From Phormidesmis priestleyi BC1401 (GTDB lineage Bacteria; Cyanobacteriota; Cyanobacteriia; Leptolyngbyales; Leptolyngbyaceae): 64,000 nucleotides of DNA. The notes beneath the pieces were generated by a model. It saw only the letters and a list, made by a program, of their open reading frames with translations. It made no database searches and was not told the DNA's origin. Positions 2,700 to 59,403 of the stretch are shown piece after piece; within the stretch, counting starts at the first letter, position 1, and every line of letters begins with the position of its first letter. The DNA lies in contig NZ_LXYR01000002.1 of the NCBI RefSeq assembly GCF_001650195.1, forward strand, positions 124,001 through 188,000, in the 5' to 3' direction. A program made the position numbers and the translations under genes.

Positions 2700-4730
2700 C
2701 TATGCATCGACTAAATCGCTGTGGTCGGTTTCCCTGTTCCGAATGGTCTCAAATAAGTCGCTGTCATCATTGGTAAATGCACACACATCAAAGTAATAAA
2801 CTGCGGGTGTTCCACTTCTTCTGCGGTTAGAAATCAAATAAGAATTAAGGTCAACGAATTTTTCATGATCTCGGTTAGAAAGGCTGATCAAATAGTTTCC
2901 AAAGTTGTCATAGATCAGAAAGTGTTCGTAGCCAATTTTTAACAGTGTCTTAATAGCCTCGATCGCTTCAGCTTCAGCGTTTGGTTTAAAGGTCAGATCA
3001 TACTCAAAATAGAGAACTGGACGAGATGCAGAAATAATGTCAGCCGAGGCGTTAATAATTGAGAAGTCAAAGCCATCGGTGTCTATTTTGAGAAGTTTTG
3101 CATCCTTAAATCTGGAGTGATCTTGAATGATTGTGTTCAGGCTTTTCATTGCAACTCGCTCACCTTTGCTGGAAGTAAGAGCATTGACGATCGAGGCAGT
3201 TCCTCCGTGATTGAGAGTTGAATCAAAATTAATGATCTCCCCATCAGTGCCAACAAAACACTCATCAATTTCAACGTCTCCGATCTGCAAAGCATTGCGT
3301 CTCAGACATTCAACAAACTCAGGACTTCCTTCAACGCATAGGACTGGAACTGCCCGACCACTGCGGATGAGTGCTGCACTATCGCCGACATTTGCCCCAA
3401 TGTCGATCGCAGATGATTGGGGATATTTATCAAAAACTGCCTGGGAAATATAGCCTAAAGCAGTATCATATCTGTGCCAAGTTGCTTGATAGTGATCTAA
3501 GCGATGGTCGATCGGCAGAAGAATAGAGTAGCAACCAATTTTGTATCGTTTAGTCGCAAGTTTTGCACTCTTCAGATTGACTAACTCTATGAAAATAGCC
3601 TCTAACTTATCAACTGCTTTAGCTTGACTAAATTCAGACATTGCTCGTTGTTGACCTGTTCGAGTAATTGCCTCCCAGCGTGCCAAGTCTGTTGGCAGAG
3701 AAGACAAACTATCGGCTAGATCAAATGGGTTTTCAGACTCAAAGATTAGTCCATCGGTGCCAGATTCGGCGATGATTTCTTTGGCTCCTCCGGTGCCACT
3801 GGTGACGAGAGTGAGTCCTGCTGCCATTGCCTCAATTTGACTGATTCCAAATGGCTCCTCAAATCGAGAAGGAAAAACCAGAACATTATGAGTTTTATAG
3901 AGTTGAATCAGTTCTTGACGAGACAATGCTCCTGGGAAGTGAACGGATTCTTGGAGTCCTTCTGATTCCACAAATTGCTTTAAAGCTTCAACAAATTCTG
4001 GTTGAAACGTGCCCCCGGCGATCGTGGCGGTGAATTCAATTCCTGCCGCGTGAAGTAGAGAGAGCGCTTCGACTAAAACATCAGCCCCTTTGTATGCGGT
4101 GACTAAACTGGCGTAGGCAATGCGAAGACGATCGCGCGGCGGAAGCTCGGCTTGATAAAAGGCATCGACATCGGCACCAGGATAAATAGTTTGTGTTGTA
4201 GCGGTCGAGTAGCCTAACGTCTGAAGGCTTGCCGTGACCCAATCGCTACAGGTGATGGGCTGGTAAAGGGGCGATTGGGGCGTGTGCTGAGGCGAATAAT
4301 CGGCTTGAGCATTCATCAAATAGTGAACCACGGGCACATGACGAGAGAGCAATAGTGCTAAACTCTCTGCTTCCATTTGCACAAACCGCAGATTACCTGC
4401 TAAACAAACATCGGGCTGAAAGTGGTCTAAGTGGTGTTTGAGCACCGCCTGATTTTGCTGCCTCGCACTCACTACGCGCTGATGGTCAAACCAGCTTGCT
4501 CCTTCAGAGGACCACCCACCCATGAGCGACAAACAACGATCGACAGGCGGATCAGGATAGAGACTGACGTGAGATGCAGAAAACTGGGGCGTGTCACTCG
4601 TCAACACTAAAACGGTGTGACCACGATGTTGCAACAGTCGGGCAAAGTCTGCGATCGAGCGTTCATATCCTCCTAAAACTTGCGGCGGGTAAAGATTGGT
4701 GAGCACTAAGATTTTGAGAGTTTTAGTCAT
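2700..4730 (-). CDS. GT4 glycosyltransferase fused to FkbM methyltransferase
   Basis: This is a two-domain protein of about 676 residues. Residues about 5-385 form a GT4 (GT-B) glycosyltransferase: an N-terminal LTNLYPPQVLGGYERSIADF glycine loop and a C-terminal nucleotide-sugar site with VFPSRFEEPFGISQIEAMA and the EPFG glutamates. Residues about 430-660 form an FkbM-type SAM-dependent methyltransferase, with SAIDIGANVGDSAALI (motif I) and the family's LLKIDTDGFD block. I start at the ATG giving MTKTLKILVLTN; the longer frame overlaps the upstream gene and adds unrelated residues. It lies 40 bases downstream of the SPINDLY-type transferase, so they probably share a transcript. Acceptor and sugar are unknown; I infer building and O-methylation of a glycan. 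Confidence 0.88.
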   Translation of the reverse strand: MTKTLKILVLTNLYPPQVLGGYERSIADFARLLQHRGHTVLVLTSDTPQFSASHVSLYPDPPVDRCLSLMGGWSSEGASWFDHQRVVSARQQNQAVLKHHLDHFQPDVCLAGNLRFVQMEAESLALLLSRHVPVVHYLMNAQADYSPQHTPQSPLYQPITCSDWVTASLQTLGYSTATTQTIYPGADVDAFYQAELPPRDRLRIAYASLVTAYKGADVLVEALSLLHAAGIEFTATIAGGTFQPEFVEALKQFVESEGLQESVHFPGALSRQELIQLYKTHNVLVFPSRFEEPFGISQIEAMAAGLTLVTSGTGGAKEIIAESGTDGLIFESENPFDLADSLSSLPTDLARWEAITRTGQQRAMSEFSQAKAVDKLEAIFIELVNLKSAKLATKRYKIGCYSILLPIDHRLDHYQATWHRYDTALGYISQAVFDKYPQSSAIDIGANVGDSAALIRSGRAVPVLCVEGSPEFVECLRRNALQIGDVEIDECFVGTDGEIINFDSTLNHGGTASIVNALTSSKGERVAMKSLNTIIQDHSRFKDAKLLKIDTDGFDFSIINASADIISASRPVLYFEYDLTFKPNAEAEAIEAIKTLLKIGYEHFLIYDNFGNYLISLSNRDHEKFVDLNSYLISNRRRSGTPAVYYFDVCAFTNDDSDLFETIRNRETDHSDLVDA

Positions 4731-4770
4731 CTTGATTACTCTTGAGTGAAATACGGTGTTGCTGAATTCA

Positions 4771-7020
4771 TCACGATCGCTCACTCAGTTCGGCTGATGA
4801 TTCTGACGTTGCTAAATAGGTTGCCCACATTTGCTCGTAAGCCTTTTCCATCTCGCGAGTAAATTGTTTGCCATTCCAAAGTGGGGCAGTTTGTTTCGAT
4901 CGCTTCAACTTCCAGGCGATTTGCTGCCGGAGCGCCGCATCGGTTCCTAAACGAACTCCCCAATTGACATATTCGTCATCTGTCCAGGCGATGCCTTCGG
5001 TGAGTCCGGCGTTGGTCAGCATCGTGTAGCTGTTTCGAGCGGCAAATTGTTCTCCGACTCGCGTCACTAATGGGATTTCCATCCAAAGGGCTTCGAGGGT
5101 TGTGGTTGCGCCATTGTAGGGAAAGGTGTCTAGCACCACATCGGCGATCGCTAAATTAGCGCGATGAATTTCAACCGATGGGTCATCAGGCAAAAATCGG
5201 AGACGATCGCTTGATACGCCCTCTTCTTCAGCGATTTCTGCAAAAAATTTGCTGATCGATTCCTGGTCTGAGAGTCCTTTAATTAAGAAGTAGCTGTTGG
5301 GAACTTGCTTAAGAATTCGCATTTGCAGCTTTACGGTGTCGCGATGTCGTTTGTAGCCTCGCTGGGCACTGAGGAAGACGATCGCATCATTGGGAATCTC
5401 TAAATGTTCTCGTCGTAGCGTGGGAATGCCGACTTCAAAACCATCGACGGCAATATAGGTTTGAGGCAACCGAACAATTTTCTCACTGTAGTAATCTTGG
5501 GCGGAGTCTGGCAAAACGTAGGGGTCGGCGATGAAATAGTCGATCGCGGGTAAACCTGATGCATCCCAACCGAGCCAGGTTGCTTGAACGGGGGCGGGCT
5601 TGAGTGCCAAAATCTCACAGGTTAGATCGAGGGTGATGCTGTCAAGATCGATGAGAATATCAATTTCGTCTTCATGGATCTGGGTCGCGATCATTAAGTT
5701 GGTTCCTAGACCGACCGTTTCAATTTTGTGGACGTGTTCAAATTGGTTCACATACCACTCTTGCAAGGGATCGTGAAATTTTCGATAGCTGAGAAAATAG
5801 CCATAGAGTTCAAAGCGATCGCGATCATGGTGCTGCAATAGGCACCGAGCAAGCCAGCCGACCGAATGCGTTGCCATGCAGTGAGACAAATAGCCGATTT
5901 TAAGACGCTTGGGGGCGCGATCGCGGATTGAGTGCTGATAGTTTCTGCCCTTGTTGGCGGCGTTGAGTTGAATATTTTTTTGACAATATTCGAGGACTTG
6001 ATTTTCGAGGGTGCGCCAGCGCTGTGGCTGATCGTAGAAGTAGACCAAATAGTAAGACGAGTTGAGCAGCCGAGAGATACTAACAGAATGTACATCGGTG
6101 GGCTGTTGCTCAACCAAAGTCTGCAACAAAGACTCATGCCTCTCAGCAATCTTCAGCGCTTCTTGCCAATAGCCACCCGCACCAAGCAAGCCCCGCAAGA
6201 TTAAATGGTTAGAAAAAATCTTTTCGGGTAAGTAGTTTGTGAGTTCATATCGACGCTCACCGACTTGGATGCTGCGATCGTACTGTTTTGCGTTGTGATA
6301 AAAAAGCGACAAGTGACCCAAAAATTCGATGCTGTCAGGGTCAAAGCGGAGATAAGCCTCAACCAGATCGGCTGCAAATGCACCACTCATCTTACTGTGA
6401 GCAAATCGAATCGCTGCGGGCAGCAAAACCTGCATCAAGGCGTGAGTATCAGGAACTAAGCTGATGCAACCCTCAGCAAATTTGAGCAGAGACGGCGTAG
6501 GGGCGGCGTGATATAAAACAGTTTCTAAAACGTGTAGCAAAAACTCTGAATTGACCTCTACTCCTTGAAGCGATTGCGGCAACTCCAACTCTTCAAGCGT
6601 GTCATCGGTGTAGAGATCAAGCTCGATCGAAAGCTGCAAGAGTTGCAGAACGTTATAAATGAGATTAGGAGACACTTCGCGCAGATGTTGACGGATTGCC
6701 CACGCGGTTGAGTAGTCTGTCAAAGCCTCGCGTCTCTCTGCCTCGGTTTGCAACACTTGCGCTAACTCAGCGACCCATTGTTCAACCTGATCAGGTTCAC
6801 CTTCCGACATCGCAAACAGCCAGGTGGTTTGGGCTTCGGCTTCTTCACCTTGCAAGAGCAGCAATAAGCCTAACTGCCAATAATAAGATCGCTCTTCGGG
6901 GTTGGACTCGATCGCTTGTTCGTAGAGTTGGGCAGCTTGAGCATAATTTGCTTGCGCTAGATATTGGCTAGCTTGCAATTGCCAGGAGGTTAACGCTTCG
7001 GTAGAGTTGGTAGAAGTCAT
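4771..7020 (-). CDS. SPINDLY-family O-GlcNAc (GT41) transferase with TPR
   Basis: The 749-residue protein has TPR-like helices at its N-terminus (residues about 10-60, YLAQANYAQAAQLYEQAIESNPEE) and a longer helical region to about 350. The C-terminal GT41 catalytic half begins at RLKIGYLSHCMATHSVGWL and includes VQATWLGWDASGLPAIDYF, FLSAQRGYKRH and the nucleotide-sugar block VLDTFPYNGATTTLEALW. Family members add a single sugar (GlcNAc or fucose) to Ser/Thr of cytoplasmic proteins. It lies between a type IV pilin gene and a GT4-FkbM fusion on the same strand. Modification of the pilin or another surface protein is my inference, not shown by the sequence. Confidence 0.9.
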   Translation of the reverse strand: MTSTNSTEALTSWQLQASQYLAQANYAQAAQLYEQAIESNPEERSYYWQLGLLLLLQGEEAEAQTTWLFAMSEGEPDQVEQWVAELAQVLQTEAERREALTDYSTAWAIRQHLREVSPNLIYNVLQLLQLSIELDLYTDDTLEELELPQSLQGVEVNSEFLLHVLETVLYHAAPTPSLLKFAEGCISLVPDTHALMQVLLPAAIRFAHSKMSGAFAADLVEAYLRFDPDSIEFLGHLSLFYHNAKQYDRSIQVGERRYELTNYLPEKIFSNHLILRGLLGAGGYWQEALKIAERHESLLQTLVEQQPTDVHSVSISRLLNSSYYLVYFYDQPQRWRTLENQVLEYCQKNIQLNAANKGRNYQHSIRDRAPKRLKIGYLSHCMATHSVGWLARCLLQHHDRDRFELYGYFLSYRKFHDPLQEWYVNQFEHVHKIETVGLGTNLMIATQIHEDEIDILIDLDSITLDLTCEILALKPAPVQATWLGWDASGLPAIDYFIADPYVLPDSAQDYYSEKIVRLPQTYIAVDGFEVGIPTLRREHLEIPNDAIVFLSAQRGYKRHRDTVKLQMRILKQVPNSYFLIKGLSDQESISKFFAEIAEEEGVSSDRLRFLPDDPSVEIHRANLAIADVVLDTFPYNGATTTLEALWMEIPLVTRVGEQFAARNSYTMLTNAGLTEGIAWTDDEYVNWGVRLGTDAALRQQIAWKLKRSKQTAPLWNGKQFTREMEKAYEQMWATYLATSESSAELSERS

Positions 7021-7729: not shown

Positions 7730-7947
7730 GAAAGAGTGTCTCCTAAAGGGTGCGGGTGGATGAGCTTCTAACGCTGAACCTAACTTGCCCAGTTCTTTCA
7801 CCTTTCATATCACTCGTCTCTAAAAATCTTCCTGATTTCTCAAACCCTCGATCCAATAAGAGTTAGAGGCGACGATCTGCTCCTCATAAAGTGGAGCGAA
7901 GCCCTCGCCAGCCCTAGAATTCTTGTTCTCTCCTTAGGGCTACCGTG
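7730..7947. repeat. Intergenic region with decayed dispersed-repeat sequence
   Basis: Upstream of the pilin gene, bases about 7875-7905 read (on the minus strand) GGCGAGGGCTTCGCTCCACTTTATGAGGAG. That is close to the interior of the short repeat elements at 52.5 kb and 62.3 kb. I see no gene here. The pilin promoter must lie in the first 150 bases, but I cannot identify it confidently. Confidence 0.45.
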
Positions 7948-8572
7948 TGCACAAGTTGCTCGATCGGTCATGGCTGAGGTTCTTCGCCCCCTAAATCCCC
8001 CACTTTGGGGGACTTTAAAAAAGATAGCAACTGGGAAGCGGTGGGCACGCTTGGAGAAGTCGTCTTCAATTCGCTCGATGAATTCTCAGCGCATTCGTGG
8101 AACAACTCCAAACCTCATTGCGGCGGCTCGACAGCTTCGACAAAACCTGACCCCGGCTGAGAAGATGGTGTGGGACGCTCTCAAAAACCGTCAACTGCAC
8201 GGCTGGGAGTTTCGCACTCAGCATCCGATCGAGTCTTTTATTGTCGATTTCTATTGTCCTCAGCATCGATTTGTCATTGAACTCGATGGCGCAGTTCATG
8301 ATCAGCAAAGGGAGTATGATGCTGCCCAAACTGAGAAACTGAATCATCTGGGCTATCGAGTCATCCGGTTTGATAACCAAGAAGTGATGTCAGATTTAAG
8401 TAGTGTTCTCCAGCAGATCGTCAACGCGATCGAACCCCAGCCTCCTCTTCTCAAAGTCCCCCAAAATGGGGGATCTAGGGGGCTGAAGCCGACTCAACCG
8501 AAGTGACAAAGACTTGTTTGTACACCGCAGTTCCCGTGGGAGAGGGCTGGGGTGAGGGCAAAGATTTACAGG
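7948..8572. mobile_element. Palindromic repeat element carrying a DUF559 nuclease gene
   Basis: Two arms in inverted orientation flank the DUF559 gene. The left arm is at about 7993-8020 (CCCCCTAAATCCCCC, then CTTTGGGGGACTTT). The right arm is at about 8450-8483 (CAAAGTCCCCCAAAATGGGG, then ATCTAGGGGGC). Outside the left arm lies GTGTGCACAAGT...GATCGGTCA, and the right edge (8551-8566) reads GGTGAGGGCAAAGATTTA. The same outer and inner sequences, in the opposite orientation, make up the gene-free element at 59194-59403, where the two palindrome arms nearly touch. I infer that this is one repeat family and that the nuclease gene sits at the palindrome axis. Exact ends are uncertain. Confidence 0.65.
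8078..8506 (+). CDS. DUF559 (Vsr-like fold) endonuclease domain protein
   Basis: The protein is about 142 residues from the ATG giving MNSQRIRGTTPNL; upstream in-frame codons lie in the repeat arm and are unlikely to be coding. It has the full DUF559 domain: ARQLRQNLTPAEKMVWDAL, then GWEFRTQHPIESFIVDFYCP and FVIELDGAVHDQQREYD, then LGYRVIRFDNQEVM. The D...ExD pattern (IVDFYC, IELDG) is the PD-(D/E)XK-like active site shared with very-short-patch repair nucleases. The last 15 residues are translated from the right palindrome arm. No methylase or partner gene is adjacent. The function of stand-alone DUF559 proteins is not established; the setting inside a repeat suggests a link with the repeat's spread or maintenance. 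Confidence 0.88.
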   Translation: MNSQRIRGTTPNLIAAARQLRQNLTPAEKMVWDALKNRQLHGWEFRTQHPIESFIVDFYCPQHRFVIELDGAVHDQQREYDAAQTEKLNHLGYRVIRFDNQEVMSDLSSVLQQIVNAIEPQPPLLKVPQNGGSRGLKPTQPK

Positions 8573-10057: not shown

Positions 10058-10127
10058 GAAGGAGACAGGAGTTTTGAGTTTTGGGTGAAGTCTTCTACTA
10101 TTGAGGCTTCTTACTCACTCCTCCCTC

Positions 10128-11003
10128 ATGTCTCTCAATCTTCCTCGCCTGCGATCGTTAAATTTTTCAGAGCGTCCTAGCCTGTCATTGCAAATGATGC
10201 AGGTTGGGACGCTTTTGACGTTGGTGTTTGTTGGAATCGCGGTGCTGGCTCCAGCATTTCAAGGGTTAGGCTGGCTGCAAAGTCCGATCGAGTTTCTCGA
10301 CAATCTGCCTCACCAACCTCCGTCGGCGGCGCATTGGTTTGGGACGACTGGCTTAGGCTATGACGTGTTTTCACGAACGCTCTATGGCACTCAGGCAGCA
10401 ATTCAGGTGGTGATTTTAGCGACCGCACTCAGCTTAATCATCGGTGTGCCGTTGGGAATGGTGAGTGGATATCTGGGCGGAAAGCTCGATCGTATCCTCC
10501 TCTTCTTTATGGATACGATCTACACGTTGCCGGGATTGTTGCTATCCGTGACTCTGGCATTTGTGGTCGGGCGAGGCGTATTTAATGCGGCGATCGCCCT
10601 CAGCATTGCCTATGTCCCACAATATTATCGAGTCGTGCGAAACCAAACGGTCAGCGTCAAAACCGAACTGTTTATCGAAGCTGCACAGGCGATGGGCGCT
10701 TCGACCTGGCGAGTTTTATCGCGCTATTTGTTTTTGAATGTGATTCAAAGTGTGCCTGTCCTGTTTACGCTCAACGCCGCAGACGCGATTCTCACCCTCG
10801 GAGGTTTGGGATTTTTAGGACTGGGTTTACCCGATGAAGTTGCCGAATGGGGACACGATTTGCGTCAGGCACTTGATGCCCTCTCGACGGGAGGAATTTG
10901 GTGGACTGCCTTCTTTCCAGGATTGGCAATGACGTTGATGGTCGTCGGACTGTCGCTGTTTGGAGAAGGCTTAAACGAACTCACCGAACGCAAAGCACGA
11001 TGA
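10128..11003 (+). CDS. Peptide/nickel-type ABC transporter permease (DppC/OppC family)
   Basis: This is a membrane subunit of a peptide-type (DppC/OppC) ABC importer. It has five to six hydrophobic segments and the family EAA loop EAAQAMGASTWRVLSRYLFLNV, which contacts the ATPase. The periplasmic start PPSAAHWFGTTGLGYDVFSRTLYG is the classic OppC N-terminal signature (HWFGTDxxGRDxxSR). I start at the ATG giving MSLNLPRL; the upstream TTG adds only nine residues. No DppB, binding protein or ATPase lies next to it, so the partners are elsewhere, as is common in cyanobacteria. The substrate cannot be read from the sequence. It converges with the DUF3067 gene, two bases between stops. Confidence 0.88.
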   Translation: MSLNLPRLRSLNFSERPSLSLQMMQVGTLLTLVFVGIAVLAPAFQGLGWLQSPIEFLDNLPHQPPSAAHWFGTTGLGYDVFSRTLYGTQAAIQVVILATALSLIIGVPLGMVSGYLGGKLDRILLFFMDTIYTLPGLLLSVTLAFVVGRGVFNAAIALSIAYVPQYYRVVRNQTVSVKTELFIEAAQAMGASTWRVLSRYLFLNVIQSVPVLFTLNAADAILTLGGLGFLGLGLPDEVAEWGHDLRQALDALSTGGIWWTAFFPGLAMTLMVVGLSLFGEGLNELTERKAR

Positions 11004-11005
11004 CG

Positions 11006-11323
11006 CTAAAAGTCTTCTAAAAGCCACTCCGAAGCGCGTTCGCCTAAATCGATCGGAACATTCACCGCCTTACCCAAGCGCGGACGCTCACGAGTTTTCT
11101 CGATATAGGTTTGCACCTGCGAAACTGCGCCCCACGCGTCGATATAGCCCGCAACCTGATCGAGATGCGCGACGTAGTCTGCCTCAGATAAGGGAAACGA
11201 CGCTTGTTCTAAATACTTCCACATCACCTGCACAAAAATCTTGCCCTGAGTCCGCCGGACTTGGATATCGTAAGAGTGACCCCACTTATCGATCAGAAGC
11301 TGTCGTAGGTCGTGTCCGGTCAT
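11006..11323 (-). CDS. DUF3067 family protein
   Basis: This 105-residue protein matches DUF3067, which I know from cyanobacteria and plastid-bearing eukaryotes. Conserved parts visible are MTGHDLRQLLIDKWGHSYDIQ, FVQVMWKYLEQASFPLSE and the central WG/VQTYI helix. There is no signal peptide or membrane segment. It is transcribed divergently from petC-petA, with about 280 bases between. The position next to the cytochrome b6f genes suggests, but does not prove, a role in biogenesis of that complex. Confidence 0.82.
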   Translation of the reverse strand: MTGHDLRQLLIDKWGHSYDIQVRRTQGKIFVQVMWKYLEQASFPLSEADYVAHLDQVAGYIDAWGAVSQVQTYIEKTRERPRLGKAVNVPIDLGERASEWLLEDF

Positions 11324-19941: not shown

Positions 19942-20381
19942 AATTCTCTTAACGCAGGCAAAAAATTAGTGTTCTCATGTCCAGAACGGCTCAATTTGAT
20001 CAACGCGAATCGCCGTAACAGAGTCAGCGATGCCCACTGGGTTTGCGACAGCGTAACGCCCACGTCTTGCGCTTTTTCCTGCACACTATCCGGGATGACC
20101 GTCACGTCTTCCCAATCGGGGTGAGGGTCGATCGCTAAATCGGTTGCCGTGTCTCCAGTGCGCTGCAAAATCATGTGATGTAGGAGATCTCGATAATCAG
20201 CCGCTTCAGAATCTGTCTCGCACGGAGTGTCTACTAGAAGTTGGCGATCGTCCTGATTAAATTTATTCCACTGCGGAAGTTTTAGCTTCACGCCACAAGC
20301 ATCAAGCTTAAGCCGAACCTGCATCGGAACGCAGCGCAAGGACTCTACAAAATCTGCTTCAAATTGAAAAAATTCTGACAT
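19929..20381 (-). CDS. narM: Nitrate reductase-associated protein NarM
   Basis: NarM is needed for active nitrate reductase (NarB) in cyanobacteria, probably in maturation; the family is Nitr_red_assoc. The 150 residues open with FFQFEADFVESLRCVPMQVRLKLDACGVKLKL, the family hallmark, and carry IPDSVQEKAQDVGV and the final ALIKLSRSGHENTNFLPAL. It is cytoplasmic with no membrane segment. It lies about 2.5 kb downstream of narB on the same strand, cut off from it by psiE, a broken toxin gene and an HNH gene. Confidence 0.9.
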   Translation of the reverse strand: MSEFFQFEADFVESLRCVPMQVRLKLDACGVKLKLPQWNKFNQDDRQLLVDTPCETDSEAADYRDLLHHMILQRTGDTATDLAIDPHPDWEDVTVIPDSVQEKAQDVGVTLSQTQWASLTLLRRFALIKLSRSGHENTNFLPALREFHLA

Positions 20382-25489: not shown

Positions 25490-25649
25490 GGATCGTGAAT
25501 TAAATAAGGTCGGTCATTGCAACGTTGACTCGCCCTCACCCTAGCCCTCTCCCAAAAGGAGAGGGAACCGGAATTCTAGCTCCCTTCTCCCCAGGGAGAA
25601 GGGTTAGGGGATGAGGGCGAAGATCTCGGCATTAGTAAATCCACGTTCC
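25490..25649. mobile_element. MITE-like element, TTA duplication (copy 1)
   Basis: This 160-bp element has ends GGATCGTGAATTAAAT and, inverted, GGAACGTGGATTTACT. A TTA lies on each side (25487-25489 and 25650-25652), as a target duplication would. The inside includes CCTCTCCCAAAAGGAGAGGG and CTCCCTTCTCCCCAGGGAGAAGG hairpins and no gene. It interrupts the nitrate cluster between nrtD and DUF1830-narB. Confidence 0.78.
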
Positions 25650-59193: not shown

Positions 59194-59403
59194 CAATAGA
59201 CCTCTTGCAAAAGTCTTTGCCCTCACCCTAAATCCCCTATTCTGAGGGACTTTGAACCTTTTTCTGGCTCAAAGTCCCTCAGAATAGGGGATTTAGGGGG
59301 CGAAAGATCTTGGCAGTGACCGATCAACCGACTTGTGTGTACACAATAGAGATGAGGAGAGGGATCTAGGGTGAGGGCAGAGACGTTTACAACACGTCTA
59401 TTG
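59194..59403. mobile_element. Palindromic element, gene-free form of the DUF559 element
   Basis: This 210-bp element has terminal inverted repeats of about 35 bases (CAATAGAC..., GTCTTTGCCCTCACCCTA inside, matched from the right end). The core is a perfect 26-bp inverted repeat, 59230-59255 and 59269-59294, with a 13-base loop. The right half (59300-59345) matches, inverted, the left flank of the DUF559 gene near 7948-8010. No gene fits here. Confidence 0.78.

Follow-up and report, generated by a model that had tools for sequence, protein, structure and literature searches.

The window analysed here, a 64,000-nt stretch of a Phormidesmis priestleyi BC1401 contig, contains a small gene for a DUF559 protein enclosed by inverted repeats, and a similar palindrome without the gene lies near 59.2 kb. 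This arrangement raises the question of whether nuclease and repeat form a single mobile unit. We consider it probable, albeit with real reservations, that what the window carries is a small mobile element in its gene-bearing form, made of a nuclease and its repeat, following a RAYT-like logic in which cutting and movement are inferred. As originally predicted, a genuine gene with a match to Pfam PF04480 occupies the axis of a palindromic repeat, between inverted inner and outer arms (Table 1). The inverted repeat across the gene scored 27, compared to a maximum of 12 after shuffling. The predicted span (7948–8572) located the element correctly, with end points slightly off, the repeats running from about 7914 to 8562. 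Outermost in each arm is an end of the GCCCTCA/GGGTGAGGGC type, which is degenerate in the left arm; further in follow a stretch resembling GTGTACAC and the inner hairpin, reading GCCCCCTAAATCCCCC-ACTTT-GGGGG in the left arm. The C-rich tails on both sides, GCCCCCTAAAT and GCCCTCACCCC, are directed away from the gene. In the right outer arm, GGGAGAGGGCTGGGGTGAGGGC (8538–8559) matches the double G-rich part of the consensus of the triplex repeat TM-ECO, while the C-rich strand is degenerate; the inner repeats are not of the TM-ECO type and belong to type B, as defined below. The DUF559 frame is open from an ATG at 7970, with a likely start at 8078, and at its 3' end continues through the right inner hairpin. 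Elsewhere in the window, a pattern match on the minus strand at 25582–25617 (G000:C2:149582-149617) marks another hairpin repeat, CCCTCATCCCC...GGGAGAAGGG, of type A.

Table 1. Positions of the gene-bearing element and of its gene-free counterpart in the window
Feature	Position	Strand	Basis or remark
Element with the DUF559 gene enclosed by nested inverted arms	~7914..8562	+	Arms repeated elsewhere in the genome, gene single
Left outer arm, degenerate CTCTCC..., GTGTGCACAAGT...GATCGGTCA	7914..7985	+	Aligns inverted with the 59.2 kb copy and other genomic copies
Left inner hairpin GCCCCCTAAATCCCCC-loop-GGGGGACTTT, C-rich tail directed away from the gene	7986..8016	+	Sequence
DUF559 gene, Vsr/EDxHD-fold nuclease	8078..8506	+	ORF, Pfam PF04480, AlphaFold model, fold matches
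Right inner hairpin, mirror of the left	8451..8483	-	Sequence; inverted-repeat score
Right outer arm	8484..8562	-	Sequence
Gene-free copy of the element	59217..59384	-	Alignment with the window arms
Perfect 30-bp inverted repeat with 13-base loop, within the gene-free copy	59226..59298	.	Arms 59226-59255 / 59269-59298

The protein matches PF04480 (DUF559) with E 2.3e-37 and 127.7 bits, the curated cut-off being 20.6, and its AlphaFold model has a mean pLDDT of 87.5. Fold searching matched it to the N. gonorrhoeae endonuclease-like protein 3hrl (Z 14.3), to I-Bth0305I, a homing endonuclease (3r3p; Z 11.4 over 92 residues, rmsd 2.5), and to Vsr (1cw0; Z 9.7), in keeping with the earlier suggestion of a system RAYT-like in concept with a Vsr-fold nuclease. 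I-Bth0305I was also matched at the sequence level (E 5.2e-5), and with regard to the catalytic fold the protein qualifies as a relative of the EDxHD homing endonucleases. Residues E28, E68, D70, H74 and D81 are invariant in 41 DUF559 sequences, without a residue-by-residue mapping onto 3r3p. In the parts of the literature available to us, a DUF559 gene has already been assigned to the EDxHD family (PMC9403480), and YcjD is described as a PD-(D/E)XK member related to Vsr (PMC1189080).

The arms of the element recur without the gene. Over 91 columns, the left arm (7914–8018) aligned with the end of the 59.2 kb copy in inverted orientation at a score of 32.5, the maximum in 200 shuffles being 12, whereas for the right arm only the inner 30–33 bp match (scores 23 and 20, shuffled maximum 11). 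The proposal that both arms reappear there in inverted orientation therefore holds for the left arm and, on the right, only for the inner part. A match limited to the C-rich core, which would have refuted the proposal, can be excluded, because the GTGTGCACAAGT...GATCGGTCA part of the outer arm is aligned as well. The gene-free copy had been predicted to form a perfect 26-bp hairpin around 13 bases; the loop length was right, and the stem is longer (Table 1). Throughout the genome, the arms match at least 84 stretches in at least 40 distinct places, with the gene locus and the copy at 59.2 kb among them, and both numbers are lower bounds, as only 40 of 280 candidates were scored. PF04480 has a single match at E ≤ 0.001 in this genome; the same scan gave no match in an E. 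coli control genome, although YcjD scores 167 bits against the family, a discrepancy that is unexplained. With at least 40 places and one gene, the combination of dispersed gene-free repeats and few gene-bearing loci that characterizes RAYT/REP systems is met. The exact type-B pattern occurs 19 times in this genome and 241 times in that of a sister species (G001).

How general the association is was assessed in 97 related cyanobacterial genomes, including that of P. priestleyi, 71 of which have a PF04480 match. All 74 matches with E < 1e-20 were taken as strong loci, and 16 weaker, distant matches, not randomly chosen, served as controls. Regular expressions for five hairpin classes, namely A (CCCTCAYCCC..YTCTCCC), B (CCCCCTAAATCCCCC..GGGGGACTTT), C (CCCCCTT..AAGGGGG), D (CCCCTCC..GGAGGGG) and E (CCCCCAA..TTGGGGG), were searched within 350 bp of each gene. 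This census found repeats on both sides of 52 of the 74 strong loci, on one side of 14 and on neither side of 8, so that the DUF559 genes of relatives are, as predicted, flanked on at least one side in 66 cases, often by a sequence type other than that of the window. Two of the eight repeat-less loci (L026, L060) do have hairpins that the expressions missed, and another three (L064, L071, L079) form an intein-like clade. A repeat class was present in 115 of 144 near flanks compared to 6 of 138 far flanks (1.1–1.45 kb away), and in 0 of 32 flanks of the 16 distant relatives. Tail orientation is mixed among type B and C loci.

For a wider set of loci, we scanned the GTDB contig collection. A scan with a single sequence found no relative there, and an alignment-based scan gave at least 552 relatives among the 590 stretches listed, of which the best 80 were kept. 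Four of these 80 loci had short flanks and were skipped; the rest were evaluated using a lineage-neutral inverted-repeat score with a threshold of 18. Among these best 80 of at least 552, the threshold was reached at 40 of 76 loci, including Chloroflexi, Bacteroidetes, Planctomycetes, Ignavibacteria, Calditrichia and Proteobacteria, compared to 0 of 60 control pairs 1.5 kb away; the other 36 loci remained below it. A gonococcal DUF559 gene is bordered by a hairpin unit of the CCCTCTCCC type, present in direct copies.

The type of repeat goes with the clade of the nuclease. In a tree of the 74 DUF559 domains, which rests on few columns and leaves 33 of 70 inner branches open, the 66 labelled loci require 7 changes of repeat type, with a minimum of 28 in 300 shuffles; merging types B and E reduces the number to 4, the shuffled minimum being 26. 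Linkage by itself would also make the flank type track the gene tree. Eight genomes (G012, G014, G041, G046, G050, G073, G090, G095) carry nucleases with two or more repeat types, which speaks for the nuclease, and not the genome, as the determinant of repeat type, with a contribution from gene–flank linkage. The dispersed copies, counted after subtracting those within DUF559 loci and compared between genomes without correction for phylogeny, show the same correspondence: the B pattern has a median of 14 where B/E nucleases are present (13 genomes) and of 0 in 44 genomes without a strong DUF559 locus (p 4e-8), and the A pattern a median of 4 in 24 genomes with A nucleases and of 0 in the same number without (n=44; p 2e-4).

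Comparison of occupied and orthologous empty sites, which the original prediction had called for, yielded clear pairs. The sister species has a DUF559 gene at the place orthologous to the window gene, indicating that the window copy has not moved recently. In a comparison that leaves out window positions 20001–44000, two gene-free elements of the sister species fall where the window is empty, near 4720–4773 and 10995–11007; these sites are too diverged to judge target-site duplication. The 59.2 kb site is uninformative in this respect, since synteny changes contig there. Beside its DUF559 gene (L189; C102, ~118400–119000), the sister species has three extra near-identical 185-bp gene-free units in tandem, which suggests local amplification, and a second, decayed DUF559 copy with arms and an internal deletion lies on another of its contigs. 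Separately, a synteny break between window 10059–10073 and contig C102 coincides with a gene-free element on the sister-species side, as if repeats had mediated a rearrangement.

Another set of sites lies within host genes. At 26 of the 74 strong loci, DUF559 is located inside an open frame of at least 300 amino acids, and in 23 of these frames Pfam matches point to families of methyltransferases or restriction-modification enzymes (MmeI, Eco57I, N6_Mtase, Type_ISP, N6_N4_Mtase and, in three, DUF1156 with a weak methylase match); the remaining three (L031, L057, L079) are methyltransferase- or restriction-like by motif reading only. When the joined flanks of one MmeI-like host (L017) were sought in the 97 genomes, 15 matched, with the gene uninterrupted in 12, interrupted in two (L014, L017) and partial in one. 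At the junction, the empty site L195 reads TGG-CCG-GCG-GCT-GAT-TAC and L017 reads TGG-TT[GCCCTCA...TGAGGGC]AAAGTC-TAC, so that about four codons are replaced with the frame kept; a target-site duplication, the hallmark sought for MITEs of DDE transposases, is absent from this one resolved junction. A near-identical inverted repeat pair on each side of the L017 gene makes gene loss by recombination possible, which would leave a gene-free unit. On the Synechocystis plasmid CP101716.1 (L213), DUF559 and repeats seemingly interrupt a BREX pglX methyltransferase gene, annotated in pieces.

Insertion into host genes brings plain homing into consideration. DUF559 would then cut insert-free host alleles, many of them DNA methyltransferase genes, and spread by gene conversion, the repeats being by-products or linkers without a role as substrate. 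The nearest characterised homing enzyme by fold is indeed I-Bth0305I, and identical insertion sites, as judged by reading, recur in different genera with related nucleases (L014/L017; L016/L028; L049/L050/L056; L048/L051/L059). The clade of L064, L071 and L079 points the same way, as two of its members (L064 and L079) are intein-like, with intein Pfam matches below the curated cut-off; in both, going by the motifs, DUF559 seemingly sits in an intein located at DNA methylase motif I, and L064 also has repeat-like PPRTGG/PARGEG stretches. Nevertheless, 48 of the 74 loci lie outside long host frames, and from homing alone one would not expect the tens to hundreds of repeats that lack the gene and match the nuclease in type. 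We regard this explanation as unlikely.

We give still less credence to the idea that the repeats owe their movement to another enzyme (a Y1/RAYT transposase or an IS, for instance) and that DUF559 merely rides in, or is targeted by, some of the copies. What speaks for such a passenger role is that repeats exist in genomes without strong DUF559 loci (type B in G005, G006, G011 and G068; type A in G039, G043, G077, G084, G086 and G094), that Y1_Tnp genes are common (76 of 97 cyanobacterial genomes) and that in 20 wider-set genomes, 17 of which have the type-A tail pattern, the genomes with this pattern beside their DUF559 gene held no more copies of it than the others (medians 2 and 2; 13 and 7 genomes). 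The dependence of repeat type on nuclease clade even inside single genomes is hard to reconcile with it, bearing in mind that only DUF559 was sought between the repeats. Repeat number, moreover, scarcely tracks the number of Y1 transposases in cyanobacteria (rho 0.15, p 0.15; rho 0.20, p 0.05), and in one genome (G021) 95 B repeats are present without any Y1_Tnp match, so that a RAYT as mobiliser of the repeats is disfavoured. A house-keeping function in very-short-patch repair, with the adjacent repeats acting only as terminators or regulatory hairpins, has a precedent in Caulobacter VsrA, a DUF559 protein proposed for VSP repair in the available portion of PMC12907096, but would leave the matching dispersed copies, the in-frame inserts and the empty/occupied polymorphism unexplained; we find it barely tenable.

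The mobile-element interpretation rests on how the element is built, on its copies without the gene, on the match between repeat type and nuclease clade, on the orthologous presence and absence and on the in-frame insertion into methyltransferase genes, each established by sequence comparison alone. The element would comprise the gene of a PD-(D/E)XK nuclease of the Vsr/EDxHD fold, enclosed by a C/G-rich palindromic repeat whose unit is a C-rich-tailed stem-loop that often occurs as inverted pairs. The nuclease is inferred to recognise the hairpin repeat, or a target resembling its end, and to nick or cut the DNA; host repair may then copy the repeat into the break, with or without the gene. 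Gene-free copies could represent non-autonomous units spread in trans, or remnants of gene loss through recombination between flanking repeats. Considering that enzymes of this kind hydrolyse DNA via metal-bound water, as stated in the available part of PMC3943268, insertion should look like break-repair capture or homing and not like classical transposition, and the replacement of about four codons without target duplication at the MmeI-like junction fits this expectation. Our confidence is lowered by the wider-set genomes, which show no excess of repeats where DUF559 is flanked.

One of the repeat types, A, resembles a motif beside which no mobility gene has been reported. More than 260 genomes contain this motif, the intrastrand triplex repeat TM-ECO, of which E. 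coli MG1655 has 23 copies (Holder et al. 2015, PMC4666352); the accessible parts of that report describe G/C-rich triplex motifs as numerous in cyanobacteria, state that mobility activities were never encountered near TM-ECO, give no consensus of genes flanking it, and leave horizontal transfer as speculation. As far as its layout is given there, type A repeats have it in reverse complement (CCCTCAYCCC-NRN-CCCYTCTCCC-loop-GGGAGARGGG), although the arms of most type A copies are one base longer. The exact consensus, which the same parts give as CCCTCNCCC-N3-6-GGGNGAGGG-N3-GGGNGAGGG, lies near only 1 of the 74 strong loci and 6 of the wider-set loci (the best 80 of at least 552). In MG1655 itself, ycjD is a DUF559 gene, and a TM-ECO copy (1351204–1351239) is located 168 bp away, where about 0.002 copies are expected; the motif is present on one side of ycjD and absent from the other. 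On the sapF side of ycjD, in the arrangement sapF-ycjD-fabI (L214), lies a hairpin CACCTCATTCTGACAA...TTGTCAGAATGAGGTG.

A ycjD match is present in 3,365 of 5,426 E. coli genomes. Strain S88 and an O157 strain, both without ycjD, have an efflux operon at that place, with no TM motif within the stretches examined. Alternation of ycjD with the eef efflux operon among strains is described in PMC12817139, the available part of which does not mention the repeat. Near-identical TM places averaged 3.3 in ycjD-bearing rows (37 rows) and 1.3 in ycjD-less rows (22 rows) among the rows listed, which were 60 of 5,385 records, one being dropped. As this difference is confounded by phylogroup, we do not use it as proof. 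Whether DUF559/YcjD proteins are the missing dispersal enzymes of pan-bacterial palindromic repeats that have tails and can form triplexes (PIT/TM-ECO and its sister types) is, in our judgement, evenly poised; together with the repeats they would constitute a kind of nuclease–repeat mobile element beside RAYT-REP, one also capable of in-frame insertion into restriction-modification genes, where the translated repeat forms a linker and the nuclease an internal domain. The rarity of exact TM-ECO near DUF559 genes lowers our confidence in this extension.

Among known systems, REP/REPIN-RAYT (TnpA-REP) is similar in having a hairpin-flanked nuclease gene, dispersed gene-free repeats, often in inverted pairs, and a type-specific partnership. 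RAYT is an HUH (Y1) enzyme, whereas DUF559 is a PD-(D/E)XK nuclease with Vsr fold, and no Y1 (HUH) transposase lies between the window repeats. Palindromic units inserted in frame in protein genes are known from Rickettsia; these elements have, to our knowledge, no tie to a nuclease, whereas at DUF559 loci a nuclease domain is surrounded by repeat-encoded linkers such as PSPLAPLPEGEG. REP tags are GTAG/CGTC according to the part of PMC3733652 available, whereas the tails of DUF559 repeats are CCCTCA or CCCCCTA, and the window hairpins lack a GTAG/CGTC tag. Because both the HUH enzyme and the tag are absent, we class the DUF559 element as RAYT-REP-like and not as a member of that system. The EDxHD homing endonuclease I-Bth0305I shares the catalytic fold, and the two intein-like DUF559 loci and the recurrent host-gene sites are reminiscent of its lifestyle as a homing enzyme; unlike it, DUF559 mostly stands alone between palindromic repeats, with many gene-free copies, and no cleavage has been shown. 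In the literature that we could search, from which subscription papers were mostly excluded, we found no paper naming an association between DUF559 and palindromic repeats.

If this interpretation is correct, a common family of unknown function would gain a role, and an enzyme that is neither HUH nor DDE would be added to the ways in which bacterial repeats spread. The mobility of TM-ECO/PIT repeats would become testable in E. coli K-12 through a named small family with a solved structure (3hrl). In-frame insertion into DNA-methyltransferase genes could, in addition, account for odd methylase fusions in databases.
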